Positions 13,325 to 46,205 of a stretch of 64,000 nt of DNA are shown in pieces. The notes below the pieces were generated by a model that was given only the letters and a program-made list of their open reading frames with translations, had not been told where the DNA came from and made no database searches. Source of the DNA: Rhizobium sp. BT04 (GTDB taxonomy: Bacteria > Pseudomonadota > Alphaproteobacteria > Rhizobiales > Rhizobiaceae); contig NZ_CP125652.1 of assembly GCF_030053135.1 (NCBI RefSeq), positions 1,178,001 through 1,242,000 of the forward strand, in the 5' to 3' direction. Numbering within the stretch: the first letter of the stretch is position 1; each line of letters opens with the position of its first letter. The translations under genes were made by a program, and so were the position numbers.

Positions 13325-13678
13325 ATGGAATATGATCCGCACTACCCGACAATCCTGCCGGAGTTCATCGCGCTTCCGCTTGTCTTCGTTTTGAACATCC
13401 TGATACCCGTTTCGGCCATCTTGATTGCCCGAAAGCTCCAGCGACGTAGATGGCTGCCACACACATTCGCATTTCTATGGGTGTTCCTCTCACCATTCAC
13501 GCTCGCCATATTGATAACGCCGACGATGGCGCCAGGAGAAGAGGCTGGGCCTGGCGGCGGGATGATCCTGCTTCCAATCTTGGGAGAAACACCGATCGTA
13601 CTCGTCGCTTATGCTGTCATTCTGCTTTATCTGCGTCTAACGCGACAAACCTCCCTCGCGCCACATTCGCCCTCCTGA
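13325..13678 (+). CDS. Small integral membrane protein, function unknown
   Basis: A 117-residue protein with three hydrophobic segments: residues 13-35 ([19 protein letters not shown]), 46-66 ([17 protein letters not shown]) and 80-105. A KLQRRRW stretch after helix 1 gives positive charge that likely stays in the cytoplasm. The start follows GAGAAAACCTG. It ends 13 bases before the dapB-like gene, so the two may be co-transcribed, but no functional link is evident. Confidence 0.6.
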
Positions 13679-13691
13679 GTTAGGAAAGACC

Positions 13692-14510
13692 GTGATCTCA
13701 CCAATCAAAATTGCTGTCGCCGGCGTGAACGGCCGCATGGGTCGCAGCATCGTGCCGCTGCTGGCGGCGGATCCGGCTTTTGTCTTCGTCGGCGGCATCG
13801 GCCGTGAGGGCTCCATGGGTCCCGAGCTGATCGATCGATCGGCTGCGATCGCCCAGGCCGACGTGATCCTGGATTTCACGACGGGAAGTGCTGCGGCCGA
13901 ACTTGCCGGCTTCTGCGCTTCGGCCGGCGGGCCGGCGCTGGTGATCGGGGCGACAGGTTTCGAGCCGGATGAACTGGAACGGATCGCCGGCGCCGCCCGG
14001 ATGATTCCGATTCTGCGCTCCGGCAACTTCTCCATCGGCGTCAACATGCTGGTCGGCCTCGTCGCCCAGGCGGCCCGCGCCCTTTCCGCTGAAGGCTGGG
14101 ATATCGAAATCCTCGAAGCCCATCACAACAGGAAGATCGATGCGCCGTCCGGCACGGCGCTGATGCTCGGCGAAGCGGCCGCCGAGGGCCGTGGCGTTTC
14201 CCTTTCATCCGTCGAGCGGCGCGGGCGCGACGGCATCACCGGCGAGCGGCCGCCCGGCGAGATCGGCTTCGCCGTCTTGCGCGCCGGCGGGCTTGTCGGC
14301 GAACACAGCGTGCTCTTTGCCGCCGCCGAGGAAGTCGTGACGCTCTCGCATTCGGCGCTCGATCGCGGCATGTTTGCCCGCGGCGCACTTGCCGCCGCCC
14401 GTTGGATCGCAGGGCGCGCACCCGGCGAATACGGCATGCGGGATGTCCTGGGCCTGGCGGCAGAAGGGCCGAACAGAGCGAGTGAACAGCGTCTTCAAGC
14501 GCGTCTTTGA
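13692..14510 (+). CDS. dapB: 4-hydroxy-tetrahydrodipicolinate reductase (paralogue)
   Basis: A 272-residue enzyme of lysine/diaminopimelate synthesis. The N-terminal [12 protein letters not shown] is the NAD(P)H-binding GxxGxxG loop. The catalytic block [20 protein letters not shown] near residue 150 has the His-His and Lys used for catalysis and substrate binding. The start is GTG at 13692 behind TTAGGAAAG. No other lysine gene is near, and it follows a membrane protein by only 13 bases. The last dozen codons run into a dispersed repeat (see repeat at 14485), so the C-terminus may be altered. I read it as a second copy, or a relative with another substrate. Confidence 0.88.
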
Positions 14511-14660
14511 ATCAAATTCTAGGCGCATCGCCAATTCGGGGATGGCGGCGGATGAATGCCGGGAGCAGCGCTGCGGCGCGTCCTTCGAGGCTCCGCCCTG
14601 TGGGCTGCGTGTTTCAGGACGAGAGGCGTTGGCGGATGCCGCGCCCTCCATTTGAGGTCG
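14485..14660. repeat. Partial short repeat plus RIME-like repeat
   Basis: GCGCGTCTTTGAATCAAATTC (about 14493-14520) matches the repeat type at 12914 and overlaps the dapB stop codon. From 14556 to about 14660 follows a RIME-like module: GGGAGCAGCGCTGCGGCGCG, CCTTCGAGGCTC, then TTTCAGGACGAGAGGCGTTGG. The gap to 14757 contains no gene. Confidence 0.55.
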
Positions 14661-14711
14661 TCGATTTCCCTGCCCTTGTCGCAAATCCTGCGACCTAGAA
14701 TCCCCACGATG

Positions 14712-14760
14712 ACCTGTATGAAAAACAAGGACTTGAAGCCCGCTCCTGAATCAAAATCTA
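14712..14760. repeat. Short dispersed repeat touching the ocd-like stop codon
   Basis: CTGTATGAAAAACAAGGACTTG, a short variable part, then CTGAATCAAAATCTA. The final CTA is the complement of the TAG that ends the ornithine cyclodeaminase-like gene, so repeat and coding end meet exactly. Confidence 0.55.
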
Positions 14761-15690
14761 CCCCGGCACACACAACCTATCGAGGATCGCAGAGGCGACG
14801 ATGACTTCGGTTCCGGCGAGGCCTACGGAGCAAAACAGCGTTATCTCCTCGGGCGATCTCCGCCCGGCCGCCTTCCCGGCAATGATGTCGGCAAGGTCGG
14901 CCATGCGAACTTCGTTGCCGGAACCGGCGAGGAAAAAGGGCGAAGCGTAGGCATGCGCCTGTTCGGGAGAATCCGTCGCGATCACGGCTGCGGCATCGGC
15001 GACATCCAGGCTGAGCTCGTGTCCCTGAAGCGTTTTCGGGCCGACGGTGTTGACATGCACGCCGGGCTTCAAATCACGCGCGTGGACGACGGGCGTTTGG
15101 CTGGTCGTCGCGCAGATGATGATGTCGGCGTCGGCAACGGCTTCCCGGGCGCTGTCGGCAGGCTCGATATCAAGTCCCAAGGCGTGCTGCATCTCGCTTG
15201 CGAAGGCGAGACGATTTTTCTCGTCGCGGCTGTAGACGCGGGCGTGATCCAGTTTTCGAACGGCGGCGGCCGCGGCAAGCTGGGTTCGCGCTTGCGCTCC
15301 GCTGCCGAGAATCCCGACGATCCTGGCATCCGGCGCGCTGAGATGTCGGATGGCGAGACCTCCGATCGCGCCGGTCCTGAGGTTGCCGAGCCGTTCTCCG
15401 AGAACAATGCCCTTGAGCCTGGCGTCGTTGGCCGACCAGACCGCGACGATCTGCGAATGCTCCGCCCCTTCGAATGTTTCGTAGACCCGGAAGCCCGCGA
15501 GCGGTTTGTCGCCAAGGATGCCGCCGACGGTGAAGACGAGATCGCCGCGATCGGGAAACGAGACATGATGCCGGGGCGGAGACATCAGCCGATTGCCGGC
15601 TCTCGCGAGAAAAGCGCTCTCGAGCGCATCGATCGCCACCGCCATTAACCCGCCGTCCGCAAGATCCTCATCGCTCAAAATTTTCGTCAC
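14758..15690 (-). CDS. Ornithine cyclodeaminase / mu-crystallin family protein
   Basis: A 310-residue NAD(P)-binding protein. ARIVGILGSGAQARTQLAAAA around residues 118-138 is the Rossmann motif of the family. PRHHVSF near residue 40, GVHVNTVGPKTLQGHEL near 225 and the Arg-rich region RVYETFE also fit. The GTG at 15690 is chosen because GGAGG sits 7-8 bases upstream. Members convert ornithine to proline, reduce ketimines, or act as alanine/lysine dehydrogenases, and the specific Asp/Arg set needed to decide cannot be judged here. It stands alone on this strand between dapB and a GNAT gene. Confidence 0.85.
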   Translation of the reverse strand: MTKILSDEDLADGGLMAVAIDALESAFLARAGNRLMSPPRHHVSFPDRGDLVFTVGGILGDKPLAGFRVYETFEGAEHSQIVAVWSANDARLKGIVLGERLGNLRTGAIGGLAIRHLSAPDARIVGILGSGAQARTQLAAAAAVRKLDHARVYSRDEKNRLAFASEMQHALGLDIEPADSAREAVADADIIICATTSQTPVVHARDLKPGVHVNTVGPKTLQGHELSLDVADAAAVIATDSPEQAHAYASPFFLAGSGNEVRMADLADIIAGKAAGRRSPEEITLFCSVGLAGTEVIVASAILDRLCVPG

Positions 15691-15910
15691 CGCCGAACCT
15701 CCAGTTGGTGCCGGGCATGCTGCAACCCCAACCCGCTTAAGGTCAAGAGATCGGGTAAATCCATGCGCCTCCGTCCCTGGGCATGGCATGCTCGAACGCC
15801 TCTCGTTGGGTGAGGCATGCTGGATGAGGCTCTCTGGAGTGTCTGCGCAGAGCGGTGGCATAGCGGCGACGGCAAACAAAATCCGCAGCATCAACCGACC
15901 GTCCCTGGTC

Positions 15911-16417
15911 CTATCCGCTCAAACGCCGCGCCATCATGACGTCGTCTATCTCCCTGCCCTCCTCCAAAACCCCACCCGGGATTCGGCCGATCTCGGCAAA
16001 GCCCTGCCGCTGATAGAACCGTATCGCCGCCGGGTTCTCCGCGCTGACGAAGAGTTCCAGCTGCCGGACGCCGATACCGCGTGCGTGGTCGGAAACCACC
16101 TCCAGCAGCTTCCCGGCAAGTCCCGTTCCACGCAGGTTGGCACGGACATAGACCATGACGATCGTGGCGCGATGGACCATCTTGCTCGGCCGCTGCCGAA
16201 ACAGTCCCATGATGCCGACCGGGGCGCCGTCCTGGAACGCGATGAAAACCGGCTCGTTCAGACGATTGGCCCACTCCTCGTCGGGCAAGACCTCCCAATC
16301 TTCGTAGCGGCTCGCAAAAGAGGAAGGCTCGGCGCGCAGCGCTTCCAGACGGATACGCCGGAAAACCTCCACTTCATCTACCTGGATAAGCCTGATCGTC
16401 GCGCCGCCTGCATCCAT
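15911..16417 (-). CDS. GNAT-family N-acetyltransferase
   Basis: A 168-residue single-domain acetyltransferase. VMVYVRANLRGTGLAGKLLEVVSDHA around residues 87-112 contains the R/Q-x-x-G-x-G/A acetyl-CoA loop (here RGTGLA). LFVSAENPAAIRFYQRQGF is the C-terminal GNAT motif. A start at 16417 precedes typical sequence (IRLIQVDEVEVFRRIRLEAL). Acceptor unknown. Confidence 0.85.
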   Translation of the reverse strand: MDAGGATIRLIQVDEVEVFRRIRLEALRAEPSSFASRYEDWEVLPDEEWANRLNEPVFIAFQDGAPVGIMGLFRQRPSKMVHRATIVMVYVRANLRGTGLAGKLLEVVSDHARGIGVRQLELFVSAENPAAIRFYQRQGFAEIGRIPGGVLEEGREIDDVMMARRLSG

Positions 16418-16468
16418 CGGGGACCTCGTGGGATATCTCAGTTATCGTCATTGCAGAGAGCTTCGGCC

Positions 16469-16690
16469 GATGCAAGAAGCAGCGCTGCGGCGTGCCCTTC
16501 GGGCTCTGCCCGATGGGCTACGCGCCTCAGGATGAGGGACGTTGGAAGATACCGCGCTTCAATAACAGGCGGTGGATTGCCGCGGTTTGCTCCGGGCGAC
16601 GATTACGCCACCGGCTCGCGCCAGCGCCAAGAGAGCCTCATCCTGAGGCGCCTCGCAGGGGCCTCGAAGGACGAGGCGGGTGCTCCGCTT
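16469..16690. repeat. Two adjacent RIME-like repeats
   Basis: From 16469: ATGCAAGAAGCAGCGCTGCGG, GCCCTTCGGGCTCTGCC, GCGCCTCAGGATGAGGGACG. From about 16610: CGCCAAGAGAGCCTCATCCT, GAGGCGCCTCGCAGGGGCCT, CGAAGGACGAGGCGGGTGCT. The second is the cleanest copy in the window. They fill the gap between the GNAT gene and the 3' end of the next minus-strand gene. Confidence 0.65.
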
Positions 16691-16694
16691 GCAA

Positions 16695-17057
16695 CTACTG
16701 AGCCGGAGTTCCCACCCGGCCGCCCTTGCGGACGCCCGGTTGATCGGAGGGCTGGGCCGGTTGGTTCGTTGGCCGAAGGTTCCATTGATCGGGCGGCTGA
16801 GCACCCGTTCGCTCACTCGGTTCGCGCGTCGAGCGCACGACCAGATTATCCGGCTGATCGGTTGACCCCGTCGCGGTTTCATCGGGAGACCCGGTCGCCG
16901 ATTTATCGGCTGACCAATCGGTCGCTTGATCGTTCGGTCCGTCCATTTTGAAGGGTGTAACCTGATGGATGAAGACGAGAAGAACTATCCCGACCACAGA
17001 GCACACCAGCGCGTAGAGAACGAAATACTTCAGTGCATATCCCTCGCTGATTGACAT
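16695..17057 (-). CDS. Membrane-anchored protein with low-complexity Thr/Asp/Gln/Pro tail
   Basis: A 120-residue protein. Residues 9-31 (KYFVLYALVCSVVGIVLLVFI) form one membrane helix. From about residue 40 to the end the chain is disordered and built of variants of short motifs (DQATDWSADKSATGS, DETATGSTDQPDN, then TNQPAQPSDQPG). The orientation is probably N-in with the tail outside. The underlying DNA is a series of degenerate repeats based on GATCGG/CGGTT words, so the tail may have grown by slippage. The stop lies within 5 bases of a RIME-like repeat, so the true C-terminus may have been moved. No family recognised. Confidence 0.5.
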   Translation of the reverse strand: MSISEGYALKYFVLYALVCSVVGIVLLVFIHQVTPFKMDGPNDQATDWSADKSATGSPDETATGSTDQPDNLVVRSTREPSERTGAQPPDQWNLRPTNQPAQPSDQPGVRKGGRVGTPAQ

Positions 17058-17473
17058 AGCGGCCTCGACAGCGGCGCGAATGATATTTCCAAATTATTGA
17101 ACGATACTTAGATAAAATGCAATAGATTTTAGACATATGTTAGTATTTTTAGAAATTTACGGCAGATTACAAGTTGTTATTGGAGAGAATTAGGAAACAA
17201 CTCCCGCATTGCTCGATTTATCTTAAGTATCCCGGCAAAGGCGAGACGCCCGATGGCGGCTGCCGCAGTCACGAGATCCTCCAGTATCGCGCCTGGAATT
17301 CGAAAGCCGGCGAGTTCCGCGACGCCTCGCCGTGCGCTGGCGCGGGCGCTTATTCCAGGCTGCCCCATTGGCGGGAGGCTCGGCCAAGACAGCGCCGGCT
17401 ATATCGGCTAGATTGCATAGCGTCGACAGCCAGCTTCGAGGGGGCAGGGATCGGCGGCGGCAAGGGGGATCCG
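17058..17473. other. AT-rich upstream region
   Basis: Positions 17080-17175 are strikingly AT-rich (ATTTTAGACATATGTTAGTA and similar), suiting promoters for the flanking divergent genes. From 17190 to 17473 there is GC-rich sequence with open frames on both strands but no start with a credible ribosome site. It may be a remnant of a gene, or untranslated leader of the decarboxylase. Confidence 0.35.
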
Positions 17474-18871
17474 ATGTCGGCAATTGCATCTCTGTTTCAG
17501 GAAGCCGCCCGGCTTGCGGCGGGGTTCAGGCAGGCAGCACCTCGCCGCTATGTACCCACGCACGACTACGCAACCTCGCTTGCCTGTTTCGACGAGCCGC
17601 TGCCGGCCGCCGGTTCCGATATGCTTGACGTCATCAAGCAGCTGGCGAATGACGCCGAACCGGGGTTGCATGCAACGACAGGCCCGCGTTTTTTCGGCTG
17701 GGTCATCGGCGGCTCCCATCCGGTCGGCGTCGCCGCCGATTTCCTCACCAGCGCCTGGGGCCAGAATGCCGGAAACCATACCGCCGCTCCGGCCGCGGCC
17801 GCCGTCGAGACTGTCGCGGCGAGATGGCTGCTTGATCTCCTGAAGCTGCCGGCCGAAAGCTCGGTCGGCTTCGTGACGGGCGCGACGGTGGCGAACTTCA
17901 CCTGCCTTGCCGCCGCGCGTGGCGAGGTGCTGCGCCAAGTGGGCTGGGATGCCGATGCCAACGGCCTGTTCGGGGCGCCCGAGATCACCGTGCTGATCGG
18001 CGACGACGCCCACACGACGGTGTTCTCCGCGCTGCAATTCCTGGGCCTCGGGCATGATCGCGTGCGGCGTCTGCGCACCGATCCGGTGGGGCGGATAGAC
18101 CCGGCAGCGCTGCTGGGCACGCTCGATTCGGTCTCTGGTCCTGTCATCGCCATTCTCCAGGCCGGGCAGATCAATACCGGCGCCTTCGACGATTTCGCCG
18201 CCATCATCCCGCTCTTGAAGGCGAAGCGTGCCTGGGTGCATGTCGACAGTGCCTTCGGCCTCTGGGCGCAGGCATCGGGGAAGACCAGCCATCTCAGCCG
18301 TGGCATCGAAGCGGCCGACAGCTGGGCCACCGACGGCCACAAATGGCTGCAGACGCCCTATGATTGCGGCTATGCGATCGTCCGCGACGAGCTCGCTCAT
18401 CGCCGCGCCATGACGATTGCCGCAAGCTATCTGCCGCTCGCCGGCGAAGGCGAACGCGATCCGTCCCATTACGTGCCGGAGCTTTCGAGAAGGGCGCGCG
18501 GCTTTGCCACCTGGGCGATGCTGAAACATCTCGGCCGCGAAGGTGTGGCCGCCCTCATCGATCAGTGCTGCGCCTCGGCGCACGAGGTGGCCGATCTGCT
18601 CGCCCGCGAGCCCGGCATCGCCATTCTGAACGAGGTGACGCTGAACCAGCTCGTCATCCGCTTCGGCGCCGACCTGCCCGCCGAAGACGGCGACGCTCTG
18701 ACCCGAAAGACGATCGAGAAGATCCAGGCGGACGGCATGATCTTTGCCGGCGGCGCCAAATGGCGCGGCCGCGACGTGCTGCGCCTTTCCGTCACCAATT
18801 TCCAAACGACATCCGATCAGGCGCAACTCGCCGCACACAGCATCATTGCCGCGTTCAAGAGTGTCAGCTAG
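17474..18871 (+). CDS. PLP-dependent group II decarboxylase family protein
   Basis: A 465-residue pyridoxal-phosphate enzyme of the aromatic-amino-acid/glutamate decarboxylase fold. SVGFVTGATVANFTCLAAARGEV around residue 130 is the phosphate-binding and substrate region. HVDSAFGLWA near 255 holds the Asp that pairs with the PLP nitrogen. DSWATDGHKWLQTPYDCG near 290 carries the Schiff-base Lys. The ATG at 17474 follows AAGGGGGAT; a longer frame upstream lacks coding character. Relatives decarboxylate aromatic or acidic amino acids, and some act as aldehyde synthases. The substrate cannot be told from sequence alone. Confidence 0.88.
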   Translation: MSAIASLFQEAARLAAGFRQAAPRRYVPTHDYATSLACFDEPLPAAGSDMLDVIKQLANDAEPGLHATTGPRFFGWVIGGSHPVGVAADFLTSAWGQNAGNHTAAPAAAAVETVAARWLLDLLKLPAESSVGFVTGATVANFTCLAAARGEVLRQVGWDADANGLFGAPEITVLIGDDAHTTVFSALQFLGLGHDRVRRLRTDPVGRIDPAALLGTLDSVSGPVIAILQAGQINTGAFDDFAAIIPLLKAKRAWVHVDSAFGLWAQASGKTSHLSRGIEAADSWATDGHKWLQTPYDCGYAIVRDELAHRRAMTIAASYLPLAGEGERDPSHYVPELSRRARGFATWAMLKHLGREGVAALIDQCCASAHEVADLLAREPGIAILNEVTLNQLVIRFGADLPAEDGDALTRKTIEKIQADGMIFAGGAKWRGRDVLRLSVTNFQTTSDQAQLAAHSIIAAFKSVS

Positions 18872-36352: not shown

Positions 36353-37384
36353 TCAGGAAGCCGGAGAGCCCCCCGCCCCGCCCTTCCTCTCCCGCCAGGC
36401 AAGCGGCGTCATATCGGTCACCCGCCGGAATTCTCGGTTGAAGTTGGATTTGGTCTGGAAGCCGACCTCGAACATGACCTCGGTCACCGATTTCTGGGTC
36501 GCGGCAAGCAGCCGGCAGGCCTCGCCGATCCTGTAATCATTGACATATTGCGAGACGTTCTTGTCCATCGCCCGGTTGATCGCCACCGAGATCTGGCGGG
36601 CGGGGATTCCGGCCTTGCGTGCCAGCCTGTCGAGATTGAGATTGGCGTCGCGATAGAGTTTGCGGGTCTCCATCAGCGCATCGACCGTGGCGATCGTCTG
36701 CTTGTCCTCGCTCGTTTCCGGCCGCGGACCCGTCTCCACCATCTCAGCCGGCGCCCGGCTTCGGCTGGCGGCGGCCGCCGCGGTACCGAGGATGACGAGC
36801 GCGGCAAGGTTGCTGACACTGATCAGCGTCAGCGCATGCTCGCCATGCGCCCAGGTGAAATCGAGAAAGACGAAGATATCGACTGCGGCCGAGAGAGACA
36901 GGGCGGCGGCCGTAAAGATGATCGCCCGATAGGCCGGCACCGCCCCTTCGAAGGGCGCCAGCCGCAGCGCATCGGCGCCGGGTCGCATCAGAAGCAGGAT
37001 CGCCAGGGCATAGCCGACAAAGATCAGCACCAGTGCGATATCGATCGCCTCCCGCCAGACGGCCATCAACGCCAGGATAAGGGCGGTGGGAACGGCATGC
37101 AGCGCGATCCGCAGCGGCAGCGGCCTCCGGCTCGTCCTCACCAACCTGGAGACCCCGGCATAGGCAAGCGGCGGCACCATCGCCGCGATCACAGGCATGA
37201 TCACGCCTATTGCCTGCACCTCATAGCCCCAGCGCAGGCCGGAGAGGACGGATTGCAGCGCGGCGAGCAGGATGAGCACCAGAAACGGCCGATTGGGCTC
37301 ATCCTCTTCGTCGCGTCTGAGGACGACGACGAAGAGGATGAGCAGCAAAAGGGCGACGACAAAGGGAAGTGGAATGAAGATCAT
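36353..37384 (-). CDS. Membrane-bound AraC-family transcriptional regulator
   Basis: A 343-residue protein with an N-terminal membrane domain of about six or seven helices (first IPLPFVVALLLLILFVVVL, last SNLAALVILGTAAAAA near residue 200) joined to a C-terminal AraC DNA-binding domain (NLDRLARKAGIPARQISVAI and VTEVMFEVGFQTKSNFNREFRRV, two helix-turn-helices). Such proteins sense a signal at the membrane. I choose ATG 37384 because the first helix begins there; an in-frame ATG at 37456 adds unlikely sequence. It is upstream and co-oriented with the ABC operon, a likely target. Confidence 0.83.
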   Translation of the reverse strand: MIFIPLPFVVALLLLILFVVVLRRDEEDEPNRPFLVLILLAALQSVLSGLRWGYEVQAIGVIMPVIAAMVPPLAYAGVSRLVRTSRRPLPLRIALHAVPTALILALMAVWREAIDIALVLIFVGYALAILLLMRPGADALRLAPFEGAVPAYRAIIFTAAALSLSAAVDIFVFLDFTWAHGEHALTLISVSNLAALVILGTAAAAASRSRAPAEMVETGPRPETSEDKQTIATVDALMETRKLYRDANLNLDRLARKAGIPARQISVAINRAMDKNVSQYVNDYRIGEACRLLAATQKSVTEVMFEVGFQTKSNFNREFRRVTDMTPLAWRERKGGAGGSPAS

Positions 37385-37800
37385 GGCCTGGCAGGTCGGG
37401 GTGACGAATAGGTGGCCATCATTGCCGAGATCGCCACCCGGCGCGACCTCCATCATGTTTTAGGACCTGTTTTCGGATGGGATTTTTTTGATGGCCGACA
37501 TGTCTTGCCGGCCCATCCGGCTTCGAGGCGCACCTCCTCCGACCAACTCCTTCCCCCCGAAAGCCTCCACGGGAGATTCGTCAGGGACCGCGGCAAGGAC
37601 AACTGGCCAAAGGCCGGAATTCGCCCGTGGGATGTTGCGGCGACCGCTTTTCACGTGCCGGCACCTTCGAAGGCAGATGAAAATATTTCTAAAAATGGAC
37701 ATTCTTTGGAATTTGATATTCCGATCGCCGGTCAAATCGGACGGTCAGCTCATTGCCAGTAATCTAGTTAATTTATAGGTTTTATGCATTGGAGGATCCC
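37385..37800. other. Divergent promoter region of the AraC-type gene and the sfn block
   Basis: From 37670 the DNA becomes AT-rich and includes the inverted repeat at 37708 and AGTTAATTTATAGGTTTTAT near 37760, suiting a promoter of the sulfur operon. GGAGG precedes the first gene. The first 280 bases show no gene. Confidence 0.4.
37708..37722. promoter_or_regulatory. Inverted repeat upstream of the sfn-type operon
   Basis: GGAAT-TTGAT-ATTCC is a perfect 5+5+5 dyad about 80 bases before the FMN reductase start, in AT-rich DNA. It could bind a LysR- or other dimeric regulator. No sfnR-type activator is in the window. I found no convincing sigma-54 site, but my check was by eye. Confidence 0.35.
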
Positions 37801-38385
37801 ATGCACAAACTGCGCATCGTCGGAATATCAGGAAACGTAAAGGCGCCATCCCGCACATCGGCGCTGGTCGCGTCCGTCCTTCGACGCATCGAGTCTGAAC
37901 TTGGCCTCCCTGGACGGCACATTGACTTGGCTGTCTCTGCACCAGCGCTGTTTCGAGCCTTGCGGGCTGACCAACTGGATGAGGAAGGCGCGGAGATCGT
38001 GCGCACGGTTGAGAGCGCCGATGTCCTCATCGTCGGCTCCCCGGTCTATCGCGCTTCGTATAGCGGGGCGTTCAAGCACCTGTTCGACCTGGTTCATTAT
38101 GAGGCGCTGATCGGCAAGCCGGTGATCCTCGCCGCAACGGGCGGAACGCCGTTGCACGGTTTGATGATCGACCATCAGCTCCGGCCCCTGTTCAGCTTCT
38201 TCAAGGCACTGCCGCTCCCAACTTCGGTCTATGCACTCGAAAGCGAGTTCGACTCCTATGCCGTTGCAAGTTCAGACATCCAGAAACGGATCAGAGCGGC
38301 CGTGCGCGAGTTGGAACTGATCCTTCCGCACGCCAAGACACTCGCCTTGTCCCGCGCTGAAGAACAATCGCGGCTAACCGCCTGA
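37801..38385 (+). CDS. msuE: NADPH-dependent FMN reductase (MsuE/SfnF-like)
   Basis: A 194-residue flavodoxin-like reductase. GISGNVKAPSRTSALVASVL binds FMN phosphate, ADVLIVGSPVYRASYSGAFKHLFDLV is the family signature, and LAATGGTPLHGLMIDHQLRPLFSFF is typical of the MsuE/SfnF group. It would supply FMNH2 to the SfnG monooxygenase encoded 28 bases downstream, as in organosulfur pathways of Pseudomonas. The ATG at 37801 follows TTGGAGGATCCC. The gene name is by likeness and context; SfnF is an alternative. Confidence 0.82.
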   Translation: MHKLRIVGISGNVKAPSRTSALVASVLRRIESELGLPGRHIDLAVSAPALFRALRADQLDEEGAEIVRTVESADVLIVGSPVYRASYSGAFKHLFDLVHYEALIGKPVILAATGGTPLHGLMIDHQLRPLFSFFKALPLPTSVYALESEFDSYAVASSDIQKRIRAAVRELELILPHAKTLALSRAEEQSRLTA

Positions 38386-38413
38386 CAAATCACGAATAAG
38401 CACGGAGAGACCG

Positions 38414-39523
38414 ATGTCACAATCGAAGAAAGAACCCTTGAAGTTTGCCTACTGGGTGCCGAACGTATCGGGCGGCCTGGTCATCAGCTCGGTCGAGCAA
38501 CGCACCGATTGGGGCATCGACTACAATCGCAAGCTCGCCCAAATCGCCGAACAGTCAGGATTCGAGTTTGCCTTGAGCCAGATTCGCTTCACGGCCGGAT
38601 ACGGCGCCGACAACCAGCACGAGTCGGTCTCCTTTTCCCACGCCCTTCTTGCGGCCACCGAAAAGCTCCGTGTCATTGCCGCCGTCCTGCCCGGGCCATG
38701 GAACCCGGCGTTGCTCGCCAAGCAGATCGCCACCATCAGCCACCTCACCAACGGCCGCGTCGACGTTAACATCGTCTCCGGCTGGTTCCGCGGCGAGTTC
38801 GCCGCCATCGGCGAGCCCTGGCTGGACCATGATGAACGCTATCGCCGCTCCGAGGAGTTCATCCGTGCGATCCGCGGCATCTGGACGGAAGACGTCTATA
38901 ATCTGCGCGGCGATTTCTATCGCTTTACGGATTATTCGATGAAGCCGAAGCCGATCGGCGGCATTCCGCAGGTATTCCAGGGCGGTTCCTCGCGCGCGGC
39001 CCGCGACATGGCGGCACGCGTGTCCGACTGGTACTTCACCAATGGCAATACGCCGGAAGGTCTGAAGGCCCAGGTGGATGACATCCGCACCAAGGAAAAG
39101 GCTTTCGGCAAGAGCTGGCGCACGAAGATCGGCATGAATGCCTTCGGCATCGTCCGCTCTTCGGAGAAGGAAGCGCAGGAGGTCCTCCAGGAGATCCTCG
39201 ACAAGGCCATTCCGGAAGCGGTCAAGGGTTTCCATCACGAGGTCCAGAATGCCGGGAATTCGTCGCCGGAGCGCGAAGGCAACTGGGCGAAGTCCACCTT
39301 CCAGGATCTGGTGCAATACAATGACGGGTTCCGTTCGAACCTGATCGGCACGCCGGAACAGGTGGCCGAACGCATCATCGGTCACAAGCGGGCGGGGGCG
39401 GACCTCATTCTCCTTGGCTTCCTGCATTTCCAGGAAGAGGTGGAATACTTCGGCAAGCACGTCCTGCCGATCGTCCGCGAACTGGAAGCGATCGAAGATC
39501 AGCGGCTGGAAGCCGCCGAGTAA
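38414..39523 (+). CDS. sfnG: FMNH2-dependent dimethylsulfone monooxygenase
   Basis: A 369-residue luciferase-like TIM-barrel enzyme. FAYWVPNVSGGLVISSVEQRT at the start and LTNGRVDVNIVSGWFRGEFAAIGEPWLDHDERY around residues 115-147 match the SfnG subgroup. PQVFQGGSSRAARDMAARVSDWYFTNG is the flavin region. It turns dimethylsulfone plus O2 and FMNH2 into methanesulfinate and formaldehyde. ATG at 38414 follows ACGGAGAGACCG. It is the best evidence for the role of the whole operon. Confidence 0.9.
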   Translation: MSQSKKEPLKFAYWVPNVSGGLVISSVEQRTDWGIDYNRKLAQIAEQSGFEFALSQIRFTAGYGADNQHESVSFSHALLAATEKLRVIAAVLPGPWNPALLAKQIATISHLTNGRVDVNIVSGWFRGEFAAIGEPWLDHDERYRRSEEFIRAIRGIWTEDVYNLRGDFYRFTDYSMKPKPIGGIPQVFQGGSSRAARDMAARVSDWYFTNGNTPEGLKAQVDDIRTKEKAFGKSWRTKIGMNAFGIVRSSEKEAQEVLQEILDKAIPEAVKGFHHEVQNAGNSSPEREGNWAKSTFQDLVQYNDGFRSNLIGTPEQVAERIIGHKRAGADLILLGFLHFQEEVEYFGKHVLPIVRELEAIEDQRLEAAE

Positions 39524-39633
39524 CGGCTTCCTTCCCAAATTGAAATCGCGAACGGCTCCCCATTCCAGGGGAACCGGATGGCGGCGCGTGTCTGCAGGCA
39601 AGGCCTGCGGTCCTGCGCACAACGGAGCAGACG

Positions 39634-40545
39634 ATGGTGAATGCGCATTACACGGCACTTGATGAGACCTCTGCGGTGAGGGACTATTCCCCGCTGCCGG
39701 TGTCCGGTCCATCGACCCGTCGCGTGGCGAATGTCGACAGCAATGCGCTGAGCCACCCGCCGATATTGGCGCTCGCGGGTATCACGCTCTCCTTCGGAGG
39801 CGTCACGGCGATCGCCAATGTCGATCTTGCGGTCCAGCCGGGCGAGATTCGCGCGATCATCGGCCCGAACGGCGCCGGCAAAAGCTCGTTGATCAATGTG
39901 ATTTCAGGGCAATACCGGCCGGATGCCGGCGATGTCAGCCTCAATGGCAAGACCTATAAGCAGGTGCCGGCGCAAAAAGCCGCACGGCTGGGCATCGCCC
40001 GCACCTTCCAGAACCTTGCCCTGTTCAAAGGGCTGACGGTTCTTGAAAACGTCATGACCGGGCTGACATTCCAGCGCCGCTCGACGTTCATCGGCCAGGC
40101 GTTCGGTTCGCCCCGCGCCCGCCGCGAAGAGCGCGAGGCGCGCGAACGGGCACGGCAGGTCATCGATTTCCTGCGTCTCGGCCATGTGCATGACCGGCTG
40201 GCCGGCTCGCTGCCCTATGGCCTGCAGAAGCGCGTCGAACTTGCTCGCGCACTCGTGCCCGATCCGCAGATCCTGCTGCTCGACGAGCCGATGGCCGGCA
40301 TGACCGCCACCGAAAAGCAGGAAATGGCCGGCTTCGTCCGCGCCGCGCGGGAGGATTACGGCACGACGATCATCCTGATCGAACACGATATCGGCGTGGT
40401 CATGGGACTTTCCGACCGAATCGCCGTGCTCGATTACGGCCGCAAGATCGCCGACGGCACGCCGGCGGAAGTCCGCGCCGACCAGGCCGTCATCGACGCC
40501 TATCTCGGCGTTGCCCGCGAAGACCAGGAAGAGGCAGACGTGTGA
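39634..40545 (+). CDS. HAAT-family ABC importer ATPase 1 (LivG-like)
   Basis: The subunit has 303 residues. After a 45-residue N-terminal extension comes the LivG-type domain: Walker A IIGPNGAGKSSLINVISG near residue 77, the LivG insert with FTFQ-like ARTFQNLALFKGLTVLENVMTG, the signature region LPYGLQKRVELARAL, and Walker B ILLLDEPMAGMTATEKQEM. The start ATG follows GGAG by about 8 bases. It overlaps the next gene. It is one of two ATPases of a branched-chain-amino-acid-type importer; the setting between sfnG and sfnB suggests a sulfur compound instead. Confidence 0.9.
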   Translation: MVNAHYTALDETSAVRDYSPLPVSGPSTRRVANVDSNALSHPPILALAGITLSFGGVTAIANVDLAVQPGEIRAIIGPNGAGKSSLINVISGQYRPDAGDVSLNGKTYKQVPAQKAARLGIARTFQNLALFKGLTVLENVMTGLTFQRRSTFIGQAFGSPRARREEREARERARQVIDFLRLGHVHDRLAGSLPYGLQKRVELARALVPDPQILLLDEPMAGMTATEKQEMAGFVRAAREDYGTTIILIEHDIGVVMGLSDRIAVLDYGRKIADGTPAEVRADQAVIDAYLGVAREDQEEADV

Positions 40546-41441
40546 TGGAAAGTTTCGACTATCTCTTCTTCCTCGAGGTGCTGACCGGCGGATTGCTTTC
40601 CGGCATCATGTATTCGCTCGTCGCGATTGGCTTCGTGCTGATCTACAAGACCTCGGGTGTCTTGAATTTTGCGCAGGGGGCATTGCTCCTGTTTGCCGCT
40701 CTCACATTCGTTTCGCTGGTCGAGCGCGGAGTGCCTTTCTATCTCGCGCTTGTGCTCACCTTCGCCATCATGGTGCTGCTGGGCATCGGTATCGAACGCG
40801 CCGTGCTTCGGCCGCTCGTCAACAAACCGCCGATCACGCTGTTCATGGCGACGCTCGGGCTTTCCTACGTCATCGAGGGTGCTGCCCAGCTTCTCTGGGG
40901 CACGCAGGTCCATGCCCTGGAACTCGGCATCGAGGACGTGCCCTTCGAATTTTATGGTGTCTTCATCTCGCAGTTCGATCTCTTCGCTTCGGCGGTCGCA
41001 GCGCTCATGGTCATCGGGCTGACGCTCTTCTTTCGCTATACCCGGGTCGGCCTGACCTTCCGTGCGGTGGCGGACGACCAGTTCGCGGCACTCGCCGTCG
41101 GGCTTCGCCTGCCGCGCATCTGGGCCACGGTCTGGGCAACCTCGGGTCTCGTTGCCCTGGTCGCAGGCCTTCTCTGGGGTGCGCGCAGCGGCGTGCAGTT
41201 CTCGCTGTCGCTGGTGGTGCTGAAGGCCCTGCCGGTGCTCGTGCTCGGCGGTTTCGATTCAATTGCCGGCGCCATCGTCGGCGGCCTGTTGATCGGCGCC
41301 TCGGAAAAGCTCGCCGAAGTCTATATCGGCGAATATTTCGGCGGCGGCATCGAGGGCTGGTTCGCCTACGCCATCGCGCTGGTCTTCCTGCTCATCCGCC
41401 CATCCGGCCTGTTCGGCCAGAAGCTCGTGGAAAGGGTCTGA
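40545..41441 (+). CDS. HAAT-family ABC importer permease 1 (LivH-like)
   Basis: A 298-residue membrane protein with about eight helices. GLLSGIMYSLVAIGFVLIYKTSGVLNFAQGALLL near the N-terminus is the LivH signature. FRAVADDQFAALAVGLRLPRIWATVWATSG near residue 190 is the EAA-like cytoplasmic loop that contacts the ATPase. ATG at 40545 overlaps the ATPase stop by one base; a GTG one codon earlier is possible. It forms the channel with the next gene's product. Confidence 0.9.
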   Translation: MESFDYLFFLEVLTGGLLSGIMYSLVAIGFVLIYKTSGVLNFAQGALLLFAALTFVSLVERGVPFYLALVLTFAIMVLLGIGIERAVLRPLVNKPPITLFMATLGLSYVIEGAAQLLWGTQVHALELGIEDVPFEFYGVFISQFDLFASAVAALMVIGLTLFFRYTRVGLTFRAVADDQFAALAVGLRLPRIWATVWATSGLVALVAGLLWGARSGVQFSLSLVVLKALPVLVLGGFDSIAGAIVGGLLIGASEKLAEVYIGEYFGGGIEGWFAYAIALVFLLIRPSGLFGQKLVERV

Positions 41442-41444
41442 GCC

Positions 41445-42491
41445 ATGGCTGCCATCACCTCCCAACCCATCGTTTCGGCAAAATTTCCGGGCTGGATCGC
41501 GCCGCTTGTCATCCTCGTCTTCGCCTTCGGCATCGTGCCCTTTATCGGCTCGAGCTATCTGATCGAAGCGCTGCTGCTGCCGTTCCTGGCTTTGTCGCTG
41601 GCTGGCGTCGGCGTTAACCTGCTGACCGGCTATGCCGGGCAGGTATCGCTCGGCAGTGCGGCCTTCATGGCCGTCGGCGCCTTCGCCGCCTTCAATTTCA
41701 ATCTGCGTGTCGAAGGCTTGCCGCTTCTCGTCTCCATCGCGCTCGCCGGCGGCATCGCCGCTGCGGTCGGCATCGTCTTCGGCCTGCCAAGCCTGCGCCT
41801 GCGCGGCTTCTATCTCGCCGTTTCCACGCTTGCAGCACAGTTCTTCGTGCAGTGGGCGCTGACCAAGTTCGGCTGGTTCTCCAACGACAACCCGTCAGGC
41901 GTGATCGACGCGCCGAAGCTCACCATCGTCGGCATCGATTTCGACAGTTCGACCGGACGCTACTATTTCGCGCTGATCGTCGTCACTGCGCTGACCTTCT
42001 TCGCCTGGCGCGTCGCATCCTCGCAGACCGGCCGCAACTTCATCGCCATTCGGGACAACGAGACGGCGGCCCGGATCATTGGCGTGCCGGTGCTGCGCAC
42101 CAAGCTGCTCGCCTTCGCACTTTCGTCCTTCATCATCGGGGTCGCCGGTGTGCTCTGGGCCTTTGCCTATCTGCGCACGGTGGAGCCGGCCGGCTTCAAT
42201 CTCGACCGGTCGTTCCAGATTCTGTTCATCGTCATCATCGGCGGGCTGGCGACGATCCGCGGCTCCTTCCTGGGCGCGGCGCTGATGGTGGTCTTTCCGG
42301 TCGTACTGTCGCGGGTCGGATCGTTCTTGCTGGGCGATCTGTTCGATTCCGGCGTGCTCGACATGAGCCAGCGCATCGTCATCGGCGCACTCATCATTGC
42401 CTTCCTGATCCTCGAACCCGATGGGCTCGCTGCGCTCGGAAGGCGGCTGACCGGACGGTTCAGGCCCAACACGCCCGAACCCGTCGGCTGA
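41445..42491 (+). CDS. HAAT-family ABC importer permease 2 (LivM-like)
   Basis: A 348-residue membrane protein with about nine helices. GVGVNLLTGYAGQVSLGSAAFMAVGAFAA around residues 48-76 is the LivM hallmark. NFIAIRDNETAARIIGVPVLRTKLLAFALS around residue 200 is the ATPase coupling loop. ATG at 41445 comes 3 bases after the previous stop, so translation is likely coupled. Confidence 0.9.
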   Translation: MAAITSQPIVSAKFPGWIAPLVILVFAFGIVPFIGSSYLIEALLLPFLALSLAGVGVNLLTGYAGQVSLGSAAFMAVGAFAAFNFNLRVEGLPLLVSIALAGGIAAAVGIVFGLPSLRLRGFYLAVSTLAAQFFVQWALTKFGWFSNDNPSGVIDAPKLTIVGIDFDSSTGRYYFALIVVTALTFFAWRVASSQTGRNFIAIRDNETAARIIGVPVLRTKLLAFALSSFIIGVAGVLWAFAYLRTVEPAGFNLDRSFQILFIVIIGGLATIRGSFLGAALMVVFPVVLSRVGSFLLGDLFDSGVLDMSQRIVIGALIIAFLILEPDGLAALGRRLTGRFRPNTPEPVG

Positions 42492-42563
42492 GCTGCCACA
42501 TCATCATCATCTTTTAACGCGTTGGAACGCCGGCGGCGCCGGTCAACAGAGGGAGTTTGTCCA

Positions 42564-43907
42564 ATGAAAAGTCTGAAAACCACAGTCAAGGCGGCGGTCG
42601 CAGCGCTTGCCATCATCGGCGGGGTCGGCCTGGCGCCTGCCCATGCCGATGAGCAATATTTCCCGCTGCAGAGCTATCGCGTCGGACCTTATGCCGCCGG
42701 CGGCACCGGATTCTTCGGTGGCTTCATCGACTACCTGAACCTGATCAATACCCGCGATGGCGGCGTGAACGGCGTCAAGCTCACCTGGGACGAATGCGAA
42801 ACCCAGTACGAGGTCGAGCGCGGCGTCGAATGCTACGAGCGCCAGAAGAGCCACCCGAACGCGGCGGCCTGGAACCCGCTTTCGGTCGGCATCGCCTATG
42901 CCATGATCGACCGCATCACCGGCGACAAGGTGCCGCTGATCACGGTGAACCATGGCCGTACCGACTCTACCGACGGACGCGTCTTCCCCTACGTCTTCCC
43001 GCTGTTGCTCAACCCCTATTCGGAAACGTCCGGTATCGTGAACTACCTTGCCTCTAGGGAAGGTGGTCTCGAAAAGCTCAAGGGCAAGAAAATCGTCGTG
43101 CTCTATCACGGCTCGCCCTATGGCAAGGAAACCATTCCGATCTATGACTTGCTGGCCGAGAAGTATGGCTTCACGGTTCAGCAGATCGAAGTGCCGCATC
43201 CCGGCAACGAGCAGCAGTCGCAGTGGCTGACGATCCGTCGCGCCAAGCCGGACTACGTCGTTCTGCGCGGCTGGGGCGTGATGAACCCGGTGGCGCTGAA
43301 GACGGCGGCCAAGGTCGGCTTCCCCGCCTCCAAGATCGTCGGCAATGTCTGGTCGAATTCGGAAGAAGACGTGATCCCCGCTGGCGAGGCGGCGGTCGGC
43401 TATACCGCGATCACCACCCAGGCTTCGGGTCAGCAGTATCCAGTCCTGCAGGAGATCGTGAAGACGCTCTACGATCAAGGCAAGGGTAATCTCGAAGACA
43501 AGAAGCGCATCGGCTCGGTCTACCACAACCTCGGCATCGTCAATGGCATCCTGAACGTCGAGGCGATCCGCACCGCACAGGAAAAATTCGGCAAGCGTAC
43601 GCTGACCGGCGACGAAGTGCGCTGGGGCTTCGAGCACCTGAAGCTCGATGAGGCCAAGGTCGCAGCACTGGGCGCCAAGGACCTGTTCCACTCCATCAAC
43701 GTCTCCTGGGATAACCATGAAGGCGATGGCTATGTGACCTTCCAGCAATGGGACGGCAAGAAGTGGAACGTCGTCTCCGACTGGATCGCGCCGGACTGGA
43801 AGCTGCTGCGTCCGATCATCGAAAAGTCCTCGGAGGCCTACGCCAAGGAAAAGGGCATCAAGCTGCGCACGGCGGCCGATGCCGAAGGCATCGCGACCAC
43901 GAACTGA
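42564..43907 (+). CDS. HAAT-family periplasmic substrate-binding protein
   Basis: The product has 447 residues. A signal peptide of about 28 residues (VKAAVAALAIIGGVGLAPAHA) is followed by a type I periplasmic-binding-protein fold: SYRVGPYAAGGTGFFGGFIDYLNLINTRDGG at the start, then VNGVKLTWDECETQYEVERGVECYE. The paired Cys of these motifs may form a disulfide. It is larger than LivJ/K (about 370) and belongs to the branch with the YAAGGT-x-FFGGF opening. GGGAGTTTGTCC precedes the ATG. Ligand identity is open; organosulfur compounds are inferred from the operon. Confidence 0.88.
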   Translation: MKSLKTTVKAAVAALAIIGGVGLAPAHADEQYFPLQSYRVGPYAAGGTGFFGGFIDYLNLINTRDGGVNGVKLTWDECETQYEVERGVECYERQKSHPNAAAWNPLSVGIAYAMIDRITGDKVPLITVNHGRTDSTDGRVFPYVFPLLLNPYSETSGIVNYLASREGGLEKLKGKKIVVLYHGSPYGKETIPIYDLLAEKYGFTVQQIEVPHPGNEQQSQWLTIRRAKPDYVVLRGWGVMNPVALKTAAKVGFPASKIVGNVWSNSEEDVIPAGEAAVGYTAITTQASGQQYPVLQEIVKTLYDQGKGNLEDKKRIGSVYHNLGIVNGILNVEAIRTAQEKFGKRTLTGDEVRWGFEHLKLDEAKVAALGAKDLFHSINVSWDNHEGDGYVTFQQWDGKKWNVVSDWIAPDWKLLRPIIEKSSEAYAKEKGIKLRTAADAEGIATTN

Positions 43908-43914
43908 CGAGTCA

Positions 43915-43939
43915 AGGGATGGCGCAAGCCGCCATCCCT
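43915..43939 (+). terminator. Hairpin between the binding-protein gene and the second ATPase
   Basis: AGGGATGGCG (43915-43924) pairs perfectly with CGCCATCCCT (43930-43939) around a 5-base loop, starting 8 bases after the stop. There is no T-run. Such hairpins often stabilise the upstream binding-protein message and attenuate the rest of the operon. Confidence 0.65.
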
Positions 43940-44008
43940 CATCCCATGGTGCGGCGGATCCGGTTGCTACGCCGCGCCTCTCTTGCCGATTGATTTGGAA
44001 CGAGCGAC

Positions 44009-44788
44009 ATGTCCGACGAAACGATCCTTCTTGATATCAAGTCCGTGCATGCCGTCTACAACAAGACGATCAAGGCCCTGAACGGCGTGAGCTTTCAGTT
44101 GCGGCGCGGAGAAATCCTCGCCCTGCTCGGATCGAATGGTGCGGGTAAGACGACGGCGCTGAAGGCTATCTCGAACCTGTTGCCGGCCGAACGAGGCCAG
44201 GTGACATCGGGCACGATCCGTTTCGAAGGCCGCGATGTGCTGAGCGAAAAGCCCGCCAATCTGGTGCGATCGGGCCTGGTACAGGTGCTCGAAGGGCGGC
44301 ATTGCTTCAAAAGCCTGTCGGTCGAGGAAAATCTCATCTCCGGCGGTCTCGGGCGCTCGTCATCCAGGCGCGAGATCGCTGCCGACCTCGAGCGCATCTA
44401 TGCCATTTTCCCCCGGCTCAAGGAGAAGCGCCGTGCGGCGTCAGGGCTTACTTCAGGCGGCGAGCAACAGATGACGGCGATCGGCCGCGCGCTGATGTCG
44501 CGACCGCGGCTGCTTGTTCTCGACGAGCCCTCGATGGGTCTGGCACCGCTGGTGATCAAGGATATCTTCCGTTCGCTCAAGGCGCTCAACCGGGAGGACG
44601 GGCTTTCCATCCTAGTTGCCGAACAGAATTCGACGGTGGCGCTTCAATATGCCGACCATGCCACCGTCATCGAAAACGGCGTCGCCGTGCTGTCGGGTTC
44701 CGCGGCCGAATTGCGCAGCCGTGACGACATCAAGGCTTTTTATCTCGGCGAAGGCGCGGCCTTCGCCCATGACAGGCCGGCGGCCTGA
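44009..44788 (+). CDS. HAAT-family ABC importer ATPase 2 (LivF-like)
   Basis: The subunit has 259 residues. Walker A is LLGSNGAGKTTALKAISNLLP, the LivF motif VQVLEGRHCFKSLSVEENL follows, then the signature LTSGGEQQMTAIGRALMSRP and Walker B LLVLDEPSMGLAPLVIKDI. It completes the importer. The ATG at 44009 has GGAACGAGCGAC upstream. It lies 100 bases after the binding-protein gene and 37 before sfnB. Confidence 0.9.
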   Translation: MSDETILLDIKSVHAVYNKTIKALNGVSFQLRRGEILALLGSNGAGKTTALKAISNLLPAERGQVTSGTIRFEGRDVLSEKPANLVRSGLVQVLEGRHCFKSLSVEENLISGGLGRSSSRREIAADLERIYAIFPRLKEKRRAASGLTSGGEQQMTAIGRALMSRPRLLVLDEPSMGLAPLVIKDIFRSLKALNREDGLSILVAEQNSTVALQYADHATVIENGVAVLSGSAAELRSRDDIKAFYLGEGAAFAHDRPAA

Positions 44789-44825
44789 TCCACCCTCATA
44801 TCCATCATTCAGAAGGGAGACCGAA

Positions 44826-46064
44826 ATGAACGTCATCGCTAAAACAGACAGGGTTGCCGTACCCGGTGTCAAACGCCCGGAAAAACCTGCGCATATCATC
44901 AAGGACGACGCAGAAGCGATCGCGGTCGCCCACCGGCTCGCCGCGGAGTTCGTCAAGGGCTCAGCAGAGCGTGACCGCGAGCGGATTTGGCCGGCGGAAG
45001 AGTTGGATGCCTTCTCGCAGAGCGGGCTCTGGTCGATCAATGTGCCCAAGGCGTTCGGTGGACCGGAGGTCTCCTACGTCACGCTTGCAAAGGTGGTCGA
45101 GATCATCTCCGAGGCGGATTCGTCGATCGGCCAGATCTCGCAGAACCATCTCGGCGTCGTAGCGGCAATCCGTACGGCTTCGGACAAAGCGCAGCAGGAA
45201 TTGCTGTTCGGCGAAATCCTCAAGGGCACCCGCTTCGGCAATGCCTTTTCGGAATTCGGCTCCAAGCGCGCGGTCGATTTCGAAACCAAGTTTGTCGACC
45301 ATGGCGACCACGTGGTGGTGACCGGTCGGAAATTCTATTCGTCCGGCGCCTTGCTTGCCCATAAGGTGCCGATCGTCGCGCTCGATGACGAGGGCCGCGC
45401 CTGGTACGCGATCGCCGATCGCGATGCGCCGGGTCTGACCGTCATCGACGACTGGTCGAGCTTCGGCCAGCGAACCACGCTCTCGGGCACCGTCATCCTC
45501 GACAATGTCAAAGTCGACAAGACCTGGCTGGTGCCGGGATACAAGGGGTACGACAAGCCGACGGCGGACGGCGCCATCTTCCAGATCATCCAGGTTGCCG
45601 TCGATACCGGCATCGCGTCGGCAGCGATCAAGGAGACGATCGACTTCGTTCGGACCAAGTCCCGCGCCTGGGTGGACAGTGGTCTCGACCACGCCTGGGA
45701 CGATCCCTACACGATCCAGGCAGTCGGCGCCCTCCAACTCCGCCTGCATGCGGCGCAGGCGCTGCTCGACAAAGCCGGACATGCGATCGACCGGGCGGTT
45801 GCCGATCCCACTGCCGATACCGTGGCGGAAGCCCAGGTCTTCACGGCCGAGGCCAAGATCCTCTCGACCGAGATCGCTATCGAGGCGACCAACAAGCTGT
45901 TCGAGCTGGCGGGCACGCGCTCGACGCTTGCCGAACACAATCTCGACCGCCACTGGCGCAATGCCCGGACGCATACGCTGCACGATCCGGTGCGGTGGAA
46001 ATACTCGATCCTCGGCAAATACTTCCTCAATGGAGAGAAGCCGCCGCTGCACGCCTGGAGTTAA
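44826..46064 (+). CDS. sfnB: SfnB-family sulfur acquisition flavin oxidoreductase
   Basis: A 412-residue protein of the acyl-CoA dehydrogenase fold, SfnB/DszC-like branch. RDRERIWPAEELDAFSQSGLWSINVP opens the helical domain, EADSSIGQISQNHLGVVAAIR contacts flavin, and TLAEHNLDRHWRNARTHTLHDPVRWKYSILGKYFLNGE at the end is the marked SfnB/DszC tail with the Arg-Asn-x-Arg-Thr-His motif. It probably uses FMNH2 to oxidise a sulfur compound; its exact reaction is not established. ATG 44826 follows AAGGGAGACCGAA. Last gene of the operon. Confidence 0.88.
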   Translation: MNVIAKTDRVAVPGVKRPEKPAHIIKDDAEAIAVAHRLAAEFVKGSAERDRERIWPAEELDAFSQSGLWSINVPKAFGGPEVSYVTLAKVVEIISEADSSIGQISQNHLGVVAAIRTASDKAQQELLFGEILKGTRFGNAFSEFGSKRAVDFETKFVDHGDHVVVTGRKFYSSGALLAHKVPIVALDDEGRAWYAIADRDAPGLTVIDDWSSFGQRTTLSGTVILDNVKVDKTWLVPGYKGYDKPTADGAIFQIIQVAVDTGIASAAIKETIDFVRTKSRAWVDSGLDHAWDDPYTIQAVGALQLRLHAAQALLDKAGHAIDRAVADPTADTVAEAQVFTAEAKILSTEIAIEATNKLFELAGTRSTLAEHNLDRHWRNARTHTLHDPVRWKYSILGKYFLNGEKPPLHAWS

Positions 46065-46102
46065 ACCAGGCTGTCATTCGCGCTTCGAAAATCAGAATAT
46101 TG

Positions 46103-46131
46103 CAGTGGCGAGAGGAACCTCATCGCCACTG
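46103..46131 (+). terminator. Hairpin ending the sfn-type operon
   Basis: CAGTGGCGA (46103-46111) and TCGCCACTG (46123-46131) pair perfectly over 9 bases around an 11-base loop, 38 bases after the sfnB stop. It is followed by an alternating TA stretch rather than a T-run. Confidence 0.65.
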
Positions 46132-46205
46132 TATATATACCGAGATCGTTCAGGGAGCTCGACGTTTCGAAATGATCTGCTCCCTGGAATGTCAGCGGTT
46201 TGAGG

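Follow-up and report, generated by a model that had tools for sequence, protein, structure and literature searches.

An sfnG-sfnB operon of Rhizobium sp. BT04 encloses a HAAT-type importer predicted to carry an organosulfur compound

SsuABC and TauABC serve organosulfur uptake under sulfate limitation. Dimethylsulfone, for its part, is an oxidation product of dimethylsulfide. The closest known enzymes are those of the sfn/msu system of Pseudomonas (SfnG, MsuC, MsuD, MsuE/SfnF and the products of sfnAB), and the conversion of dimethylsulfone through methanesulfinate and methanesulfonate to sulfite is set out in the sections covered of a 2021 paper (PMC8234197). Regions with SfnG and SfnB have also been described in Gordonia, the word "transporter" being absent from the main text (PMC9861168). 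Here we analysed a 64,000-nucleotide (nt) stretch of the Rhizobium sp. BT04 genome (contig NZ_CP125652.1, positions 1,178,001 to 1,242,000), referred to as the window, in which eight genes encoding MsuE, SfnG, a complete importer of the HAAT (Liv) type and SfnB occupy positions 37801-46064 of the forward strand.

The locus has SfnG, an MsuE-type reductase and an SfnB relative in common with the Pseudomonas system, but here SfnG, the importer and SfnB lie in one eight-gene unit, and SsuD is encoded elsewhere in the genome. The importer would have the same overall role as SsuABC and TauABC but belongs to a different transporter family, and SsuA-family proteins are encoded separately. It resembles the known HAAT importers (LivFGHM-LivJ, UrtABCDE and the amide importers) in its set of components and in the fold of its binding protein, but it falls far below the Liv and Urt cut-offs, three amino-acid-contact sites are changed and its partners are sulfur monooxygenases. 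A solved relative of the binding protein, PDB 4RU0, comes from the Pseudomonas fluorescens group and its listed title names no ligand; the literature matches listed for the string "4RU0" dealt, by title, with unrelated subjects. The genes, with lengths in amino acids (aa), are as follows.

37801..38385, forward strand: msuE, FMN reductase, 194 aa (TIGR03566, 227.5 bits; cut-off, 212.5)
38414..39523, forward strand: sfnG, FMNH2-dependent dimethylsulfone monooxygenase, 369 aa (TIGR04021, 607.8 bits; cut-off, 382.95)
39634..40545, forward strand: LivG-type ATPase of the HAAT importer, 303 aa (best match PRK11300 LivG, 259 bits, below the cut-off of 362; PF12399); the start codon may be farther downstream
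40542..41441, forward strand: LivH-type permease, 299 aa (PF02653; best NCBIfam match LivH, below cut-off)
41445..42491, forward strand: LivM-type permease, 348 aa (PF02653; best NCBIfam match LivM, below cut-off)
42564..43907, forward strand: periplasmic binding protein of the 4RU0-like family, 447 aa
44009..44788, forward strand: LivF-type ATPase, 259 aa (best match PRK11614 LivF, 211 bits, below the cut-off of 441)
44826..46064, forward strand: sfnB, DszC/MsuC-type flavin monooxygenase, 412 aa (TIGR04022, 613.5 bits; cut-off, 430.9)

A preliminary description made from the DNA letters had placed all eight genes on one strand and named the three enzymes. The strand and coordinates were confirmed, and MsuE, SfnG and SfnB all exceeded the curated NCBIfam cut-offs. 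The gaps between successive genes are 28, 110, -4 (a 4-nt overlap), 3, 72, 101 and 37 nt, and we infer that the eight genes are transcribed together. SfnG aligned with the solved dimethylsulfone monooxygenase 8T0U over residues 4-360, most of its length (E value of 6.1e-178), while the nearest PDB entries to SfnB were DszC (3X0X, 167.7 bits) and a methanesulfinate monooxygenase (6U76, 155.7 bits). The same genome carries a second SfnB (625 bits), accompanied by an SfnB-like gene and LLM monooxygenases, on contig C2 at 2.6-6.3 kb, and an SsuD-like/SfnB-like pair on contig C6 at 1270258-1272189; no PF13458 match was listed beside either spot.

Judging from gene content and comparison of sequences, we read the locus as a sulfur-scavenging operon whose transporter is dedicated to an organosulfur substrate, probably a small sulfone or sulfoxide, and give this reading a probability of about 70%. 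The binding protein would catch the compound in the periplasm, the candidates being small polar sulfones or sulfoxides such as dimethylsulfone or a short alkyl methyl sulfone, and the LivHM/LivGF translocator would import it using ATP. MsuE would then supply FMNH2 to SfnG, which would cleave the C-S bond to give a sulfinate; SfnB, a relative of MsuC and DszC, would oxidise the sulfinate, or alternatively an upstream sulfide or sulfoxide; and SsuD would release sulfite. An SsuD gene able to complete the route is present at C6:988482 (597 bits), and an SsuA-family gene adjoins it. In this scheme the nature of the ligand, the step given to SfnB and the service of the importer to SfnG are what we infer.

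One line of evidence for this reading is the conservation of the arrangement. Relatives of the binding protein numbered at least 573, and the best 80 of them, 83 to 99% identical, define the named loci. The order was scored as full when seven genes stood in order on one strand with at most 500 nt between neighbours, key genes being placed by tblastn; part of the neighbourhood contexts came from a home-made gene caller whose additional open reading frames are unreliable. The order SfnG-LivG-LivH-LivM-binding protein-LivF-SfnB was found in 75 of these best 80 loci, a recurrence that makes the arrangement more than a matter of chance. Two loci (L116 and L164) missed the full order through contig ends that cut them, and one from a metagenome bin (L169) contained all seven partners reshuffled. 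The last two, from Agrobacterium vitis (L138 and L142), have the importer with neither an adjoining SfnG nor a close SfnB; in L138 a 52-59% SfnB match and two NtaA/DmoA-type monooxygenases were seen some kilobases off. L169 also contains a flavin reductase, an LLM monooxygenase, a second SfnB-like gene, RibBA and a sigma-54 activator in one row (13555-18834, forward strand), and the name of its bin, Akkermansiaceae, fits poorly with its position in the tree among alphaproteobacterial rows.

MsuE stood immediately upstream in 45 of the 75 full-order loci, and many Mesorhizobium loci showed an MsuE relative downstream and an SsuD-like gene upstream. The genera behind the best 80 loci include Rhizobium, Mesorhizobium, Allorhizobium, Phyllobacterium, Shinella, Ochrobactrum, Aureimonas, Methylocapsa and a Hyphomicrobium bin. 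The annotation of plasmids from Rhizobium acidisoli, Agrobacterium fabrum C58 and Azospirillum sp. B510 includes the eight-gene unit. A relative of the binding protein was present in 145 plasmid records, and identity reached at least 80% in 109 of these. Azospirillum, which belongs to another order, showed the identical full gene order. The expectation of the preliminary description that sfnG, the importer and sfnB would keep their order beyond close relatives thus survived, in many genera of Hyphomicrobiales plus Azospirillum, and this conservation supports its further proposal that an importer of this class lying between the two enzymes is a different uptake route for organosulfur compounds.

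Looser versions of the association were found at greater distances, so that the importer is co-conserved with sulfur monooxygenases across classes. The betaproteobacterium Eleftheria terrae has SfnG, the importer and acyl-CoA-dehydrogenase-type genes, and another betaproteobacterium, Paraburkholderia hospita, has MsuE, SfnG and the importer; in both, as in some Pseudomonas, the importer follows SfnG and the SfnB-type genes are nearby but differently placed. In six Pseudomonas loci (L261-L266) SfnG adjoins an importer whose binding protein is 67-72% identical, and in three more (L272-L274) it lies near relatives of 49-52%, whereas L267-L271, L276 and L277 have the importer without SfnG. The genus to which G286 belongs is labelled Pseudomonas on the strength of the binding protein of one of its loci, L263, which shares 98% identity with a protein named from P. 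thivervalensis. In L266 the binding-protein match was split in two pieces, so that copy may be interrupted. Binding proteins 84-88% identical to that of the SfnG-linked L263 were also noted (P0207-P0240), their sources being methylotrophs and others (Methylobacillus, Methylovorus, Methylovulum, Aquitalea and Ideonella).

Co-occurrence in whole genomes was in agreement with the gene order. In a sample of 347 genomes of the order, SfnG exceeded its cut-off in 13 of 13 genomes with a close binding protein (about 67% identity or more), compared with 25 of 347 overall and none of the 112 that held only a more distant relative (E values up to 1e-90). The association of the close binding protein with SfnG gave a Fisher P value of 4e-17, uncorrected for relatedness and with an identity cut of about 66% picked after the gap between 67-68% and 55% had been seen. 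In 10 of the 13 genomes the binding protein and SfnG share a strand, with about 4.0-4.4 kb between them, and in another (G408) the two genes adjoin on opposite strands. The remaining two (G028 and G455) hold both genes apart from each other, the SfnG of G455 being divergent (51%, L230) and away from its importer. In a second sample, of 159 Pseudomonas genomes, SfnG was found in 11 of 13 with a 66-72% relative and in 32 of 33 with a 49-53% relative, versus 73 of 159.

The transporter has the full HAAT architecture, with two ATPases, two PF02653 permeases and one PF13458 binding protein, for which PF13458 was the only Pfam match (E values up to 0.001) and NCBIfam gave no match. None of the equivalog cut-offs for Liv was reached (bits obtained/required: LivG, 259/362; LivH, 88/379; LivM, 99/366; LivF, 211/441), nor were those for Urt (UrtD, 205/304; UrtE, 193/286; UrtB, 83/250; UrtC, 77/296). 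A predicted structure and two fold searches placed the binding protein in the HAAT binding-protein fold and indicated no ligand class, so the fold is neutral on the ligand. Its fold relatives include urea- and amide-binding proteins, which brings small polar solutes within reach of this fold.

The residues around the ligand site differ from those of amino-acid binders. In LivJ we take the head-group sites to be Ser79, Thr102 and Glu226. By alignment column these sites are not kept in the window's binding protein, which has Val108, Gly131 and Asn261 at the columns occupied by Ser, Thr and Asp in L004, a Leu/Ile/Val-type paralogue encoded elsewhere in the genome; a Ser does occur one column before Val108. 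The three sites appear to speak against an amino-acid ligand, and we are moderately sure of this, the alignment being distant. Arginine occupies position 235 in all 58 rows that were compared from the organosulfur branch described below and tryptophan in all 17 rows linked to acyl-CoA ligases, in a comparison that left out L211, L214, L220 and L264. Arg235 stands just before Trp237, which aligns with the ligand-contacting Tyr of LivJ. In the SfnG sub-branch a Gly (Gly183 in the window) replaces an Asp.

The wider family of binding proteins divides by partner genes. Distant relatives adjoin acyl-CoA ligases (FadD11-like and PaaK-like); one organosulfur group, which 4RU0 resembles, adjoins NtaA/DmoA-type monooxygenases and SfnB or SfnB-like proteins; and a second adjoins SfnG and SfnB. 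After two named rows had been dropped for stops, unknown residues or short matches, 78 of 80 were kept and 15 of these entered the trees. In a tree of 56 rows, 38 formed one branch (support, 100/97) and all 17 ligase-linked rows fell outside it. The branch comprises 22 SfnG-linked rows, 12 linked to other sulfur monooxygenases and 4 in which no such neighbour was seen, and it splits into groups of 13 (100/99) and 25 rows (100/100). A quick 76-row tree with Pseudomonas, from which L264 (stop in the aligned frame), L220 and L214 were left out, gave the same picture, with the Pseudomonas rows of 66-72% identity sister to the rest of the SfnG group. The tree of SfnG itself, in which L190 formed a long branch, mixed importer-linked and unlinked enzymes and required at least four changes, so the association persisted through repeated gains or losses of the linkage. 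A widespread combination of a FadD11-like and/or PaaK-like ligase, a HAAT importer and a related binding protein was seen in L184-L188, L198, L201-L210, L219 and L291, and some of these clusters carry a CRP-type regulator.

A different ligand within organosulfur metabolism deserves the most weight among the alternatives. The importer might take a larger charged acid, such as an alkylthio- or alkylsulfonyl-carboxylate, to be cut by SfnG, SfnB or their partners, and dimethylsulfone would then not be the main ligand. The ligase-linked outer relatives point that way, as do the many fold relatives titled as aromatic-acid binders and the one titled as a fatty-acid binder, and Arg235 would suit an anionic or a sulfonyl group. 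Room for an acidic organosulfur ligand is also left by an AMP-binding-like gene between SfnG and LivG in five of the six Pseudomonas loci with a close importer (L262-L266; Pfam match confirmed for L264) and in Paraburkholderia. In the window and the 75 full-order loci, however, the gap between SfnG and LivG (at most 238 nt) is too small for such a gene, and SfnG exceeds a curated cut-off for dimethylsulfone monooxygenase. We therefore hold a charged acid to be possible but rather unlikely.

The AMP-binding-like proteins are encoded just before LivG in Pseudomonas importers, measure 282-373 aa and match PF00501 only at their N terminus, and the one from L264 found no match in PDB at E values up to 0.001. 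Examples are as follows.

L264:6539-7624, forward strand: AMP-binding-like protein
L268:4592-5713, forward strand: AMP-binding-like protein
L183:12692-13540, reverse strand: AMP-binding-like protein

A second alternative is that the importer carries sulfonates or sulfinates, such as methanesulfonate or methanesulfinate, in parallel to SsuABC. It would agree with the MsuC-like character of SfnB, with the gene upstream of SfnG in Mesorhizobium L105 (the one tested, which exceeded the SsuD cut-off) and the SsuD-like matches likewise placed in other Mesorhizobium loci, and with the ssuD and sulfonate-binding-protein genes beside the Azospirillum operon. Three SsuA-family binding proteins over the cut-off are already encoded in the genome, however, and the close importer of the order sample occurred only together with SfnG, in 13 of 13 genomes, which makes this ligand doubtful. 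That the transporter is an ordinary one for branched-chain amino acids or amides, in the operon by chance, has in its favour the family-level annotation and the valine-bound 3LKB as second-best fold match, but it is very improbable in view of the conserved order and co-occurrence with SfnG, the contact sites that are not kept, the Leu/Ile/Val-type paralogue elsewhere in the genome and the unreached Liv cut-offs.

Two sets of observations weigh against a dedicated importer of small sulfones or sulfoxides or against its novelty. No such importer accompanies SfnG in many genomes, namely in 12 of the 25 SfnG genomes of the order sample and in 36 of the 73 from Pseudomonas. In addition, the sections covered of the 2021 paper mention "predicted ABC transporters" between sfnA and sfnB of P. 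putida (PMC8234197), their type and function being unspecified there, and this earlier mention is a caveat. Extended to the whole family, our proposal is that a HAAT branch adds a third uptake route for organosulfur compounds to those of SsuABC and TauABC; within this branch the SfnG/SfnB sub-branch would import small sulfones or sulfoxides and its sister, linked to NtaA/DmoA and SfnB/DszC, other C-S compounds, both having arisen from ligase-linked importers; the chances of this wider scheme are about even.

A link between a HAAT importer and SfnG or sulfones was not found in the literature, searched by titles and the starts of abstracts and mostly outside subscription papers, nor in the sections covered of PMC10256816. 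Likewise, no study of the entry of sulfones such as dimethylsulfone into bacterial cells was found in the literature searched, mostly by titles and abstract starts. Since the enzymes and the transporter architecture were already known, what is new is the transport role only, which is strongly predicted from sequence. Plant-associated bacteria commonly have the importer, and plasmids often carry it. RefSeq names its permeases "branched-chain amino acid" in the annotated plasmid records, as the preliminary description had anticipated of generic annotation, and the proposed role, if true, would mean a corrected annotation for a large group of permeases now labelled as amino-acid transporters.

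Three noncoding features accompany the genes.

37700..37800, forward strand: AT-rich leader of the operon (GC fraction, 0.41 over 37700-37799)
43915..43939, forward strand: perfect 10-bp hairpin between the binding-protein and LivF genes
46103..46131, forward strand: hairpin 3' of the operon (arms, 46103-46111 and 46123-46131)

A promoter-like AT-rich region before the operon and a hairpin after it had been pointed out beforehand, and each stood in part. The AT-richness is real, since GC fractions are 0.50-0.72 in all remaining steps of 100 bases between 37300 and 46500, but the promoter scan listed no sigma-70-type site in 37700-37799. The downstream hairpin is also real (folding energy of 46095-46145, -23.3 kcal/mol; z, -6.1), but it was missing from the output of the terminator scan as an intrinsic terminator. 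Both scans returned no more sites than in shuffled sequences. The hairpin at 43915-43939 may stabilise the binding-protein mRNA.

A weak -24/-12-like element lies near 37741 in the leader. When 76 named loci were scanned for a sigma-54 promoter as part of the design, the window's distance to the start codon was matched by the close Rhizobium loci L102, L103 and perhaps L101, the best match in the remaining loci lying at other distances, and such a promoter is not claimed. The two flanking genes scanned encode an AraC-type regulator and a DLH-type hydrolase. The former is divergent (36353-37456), and a relative above 100 bits was present at 1 of the 80 named loci (L101), so a role as regulator of the operon is not claimed either. 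Finally, an FAD/NAD(P)-binding protein (PF13454 in L110) recurs within or at the edge of clusters of sfn genes with a HAAT importer (L110:13433-14869, forward strand; also L132, L152, L182, L212 and L286:12833-14341, forward strand) and may be an accessory oxidoreductase.

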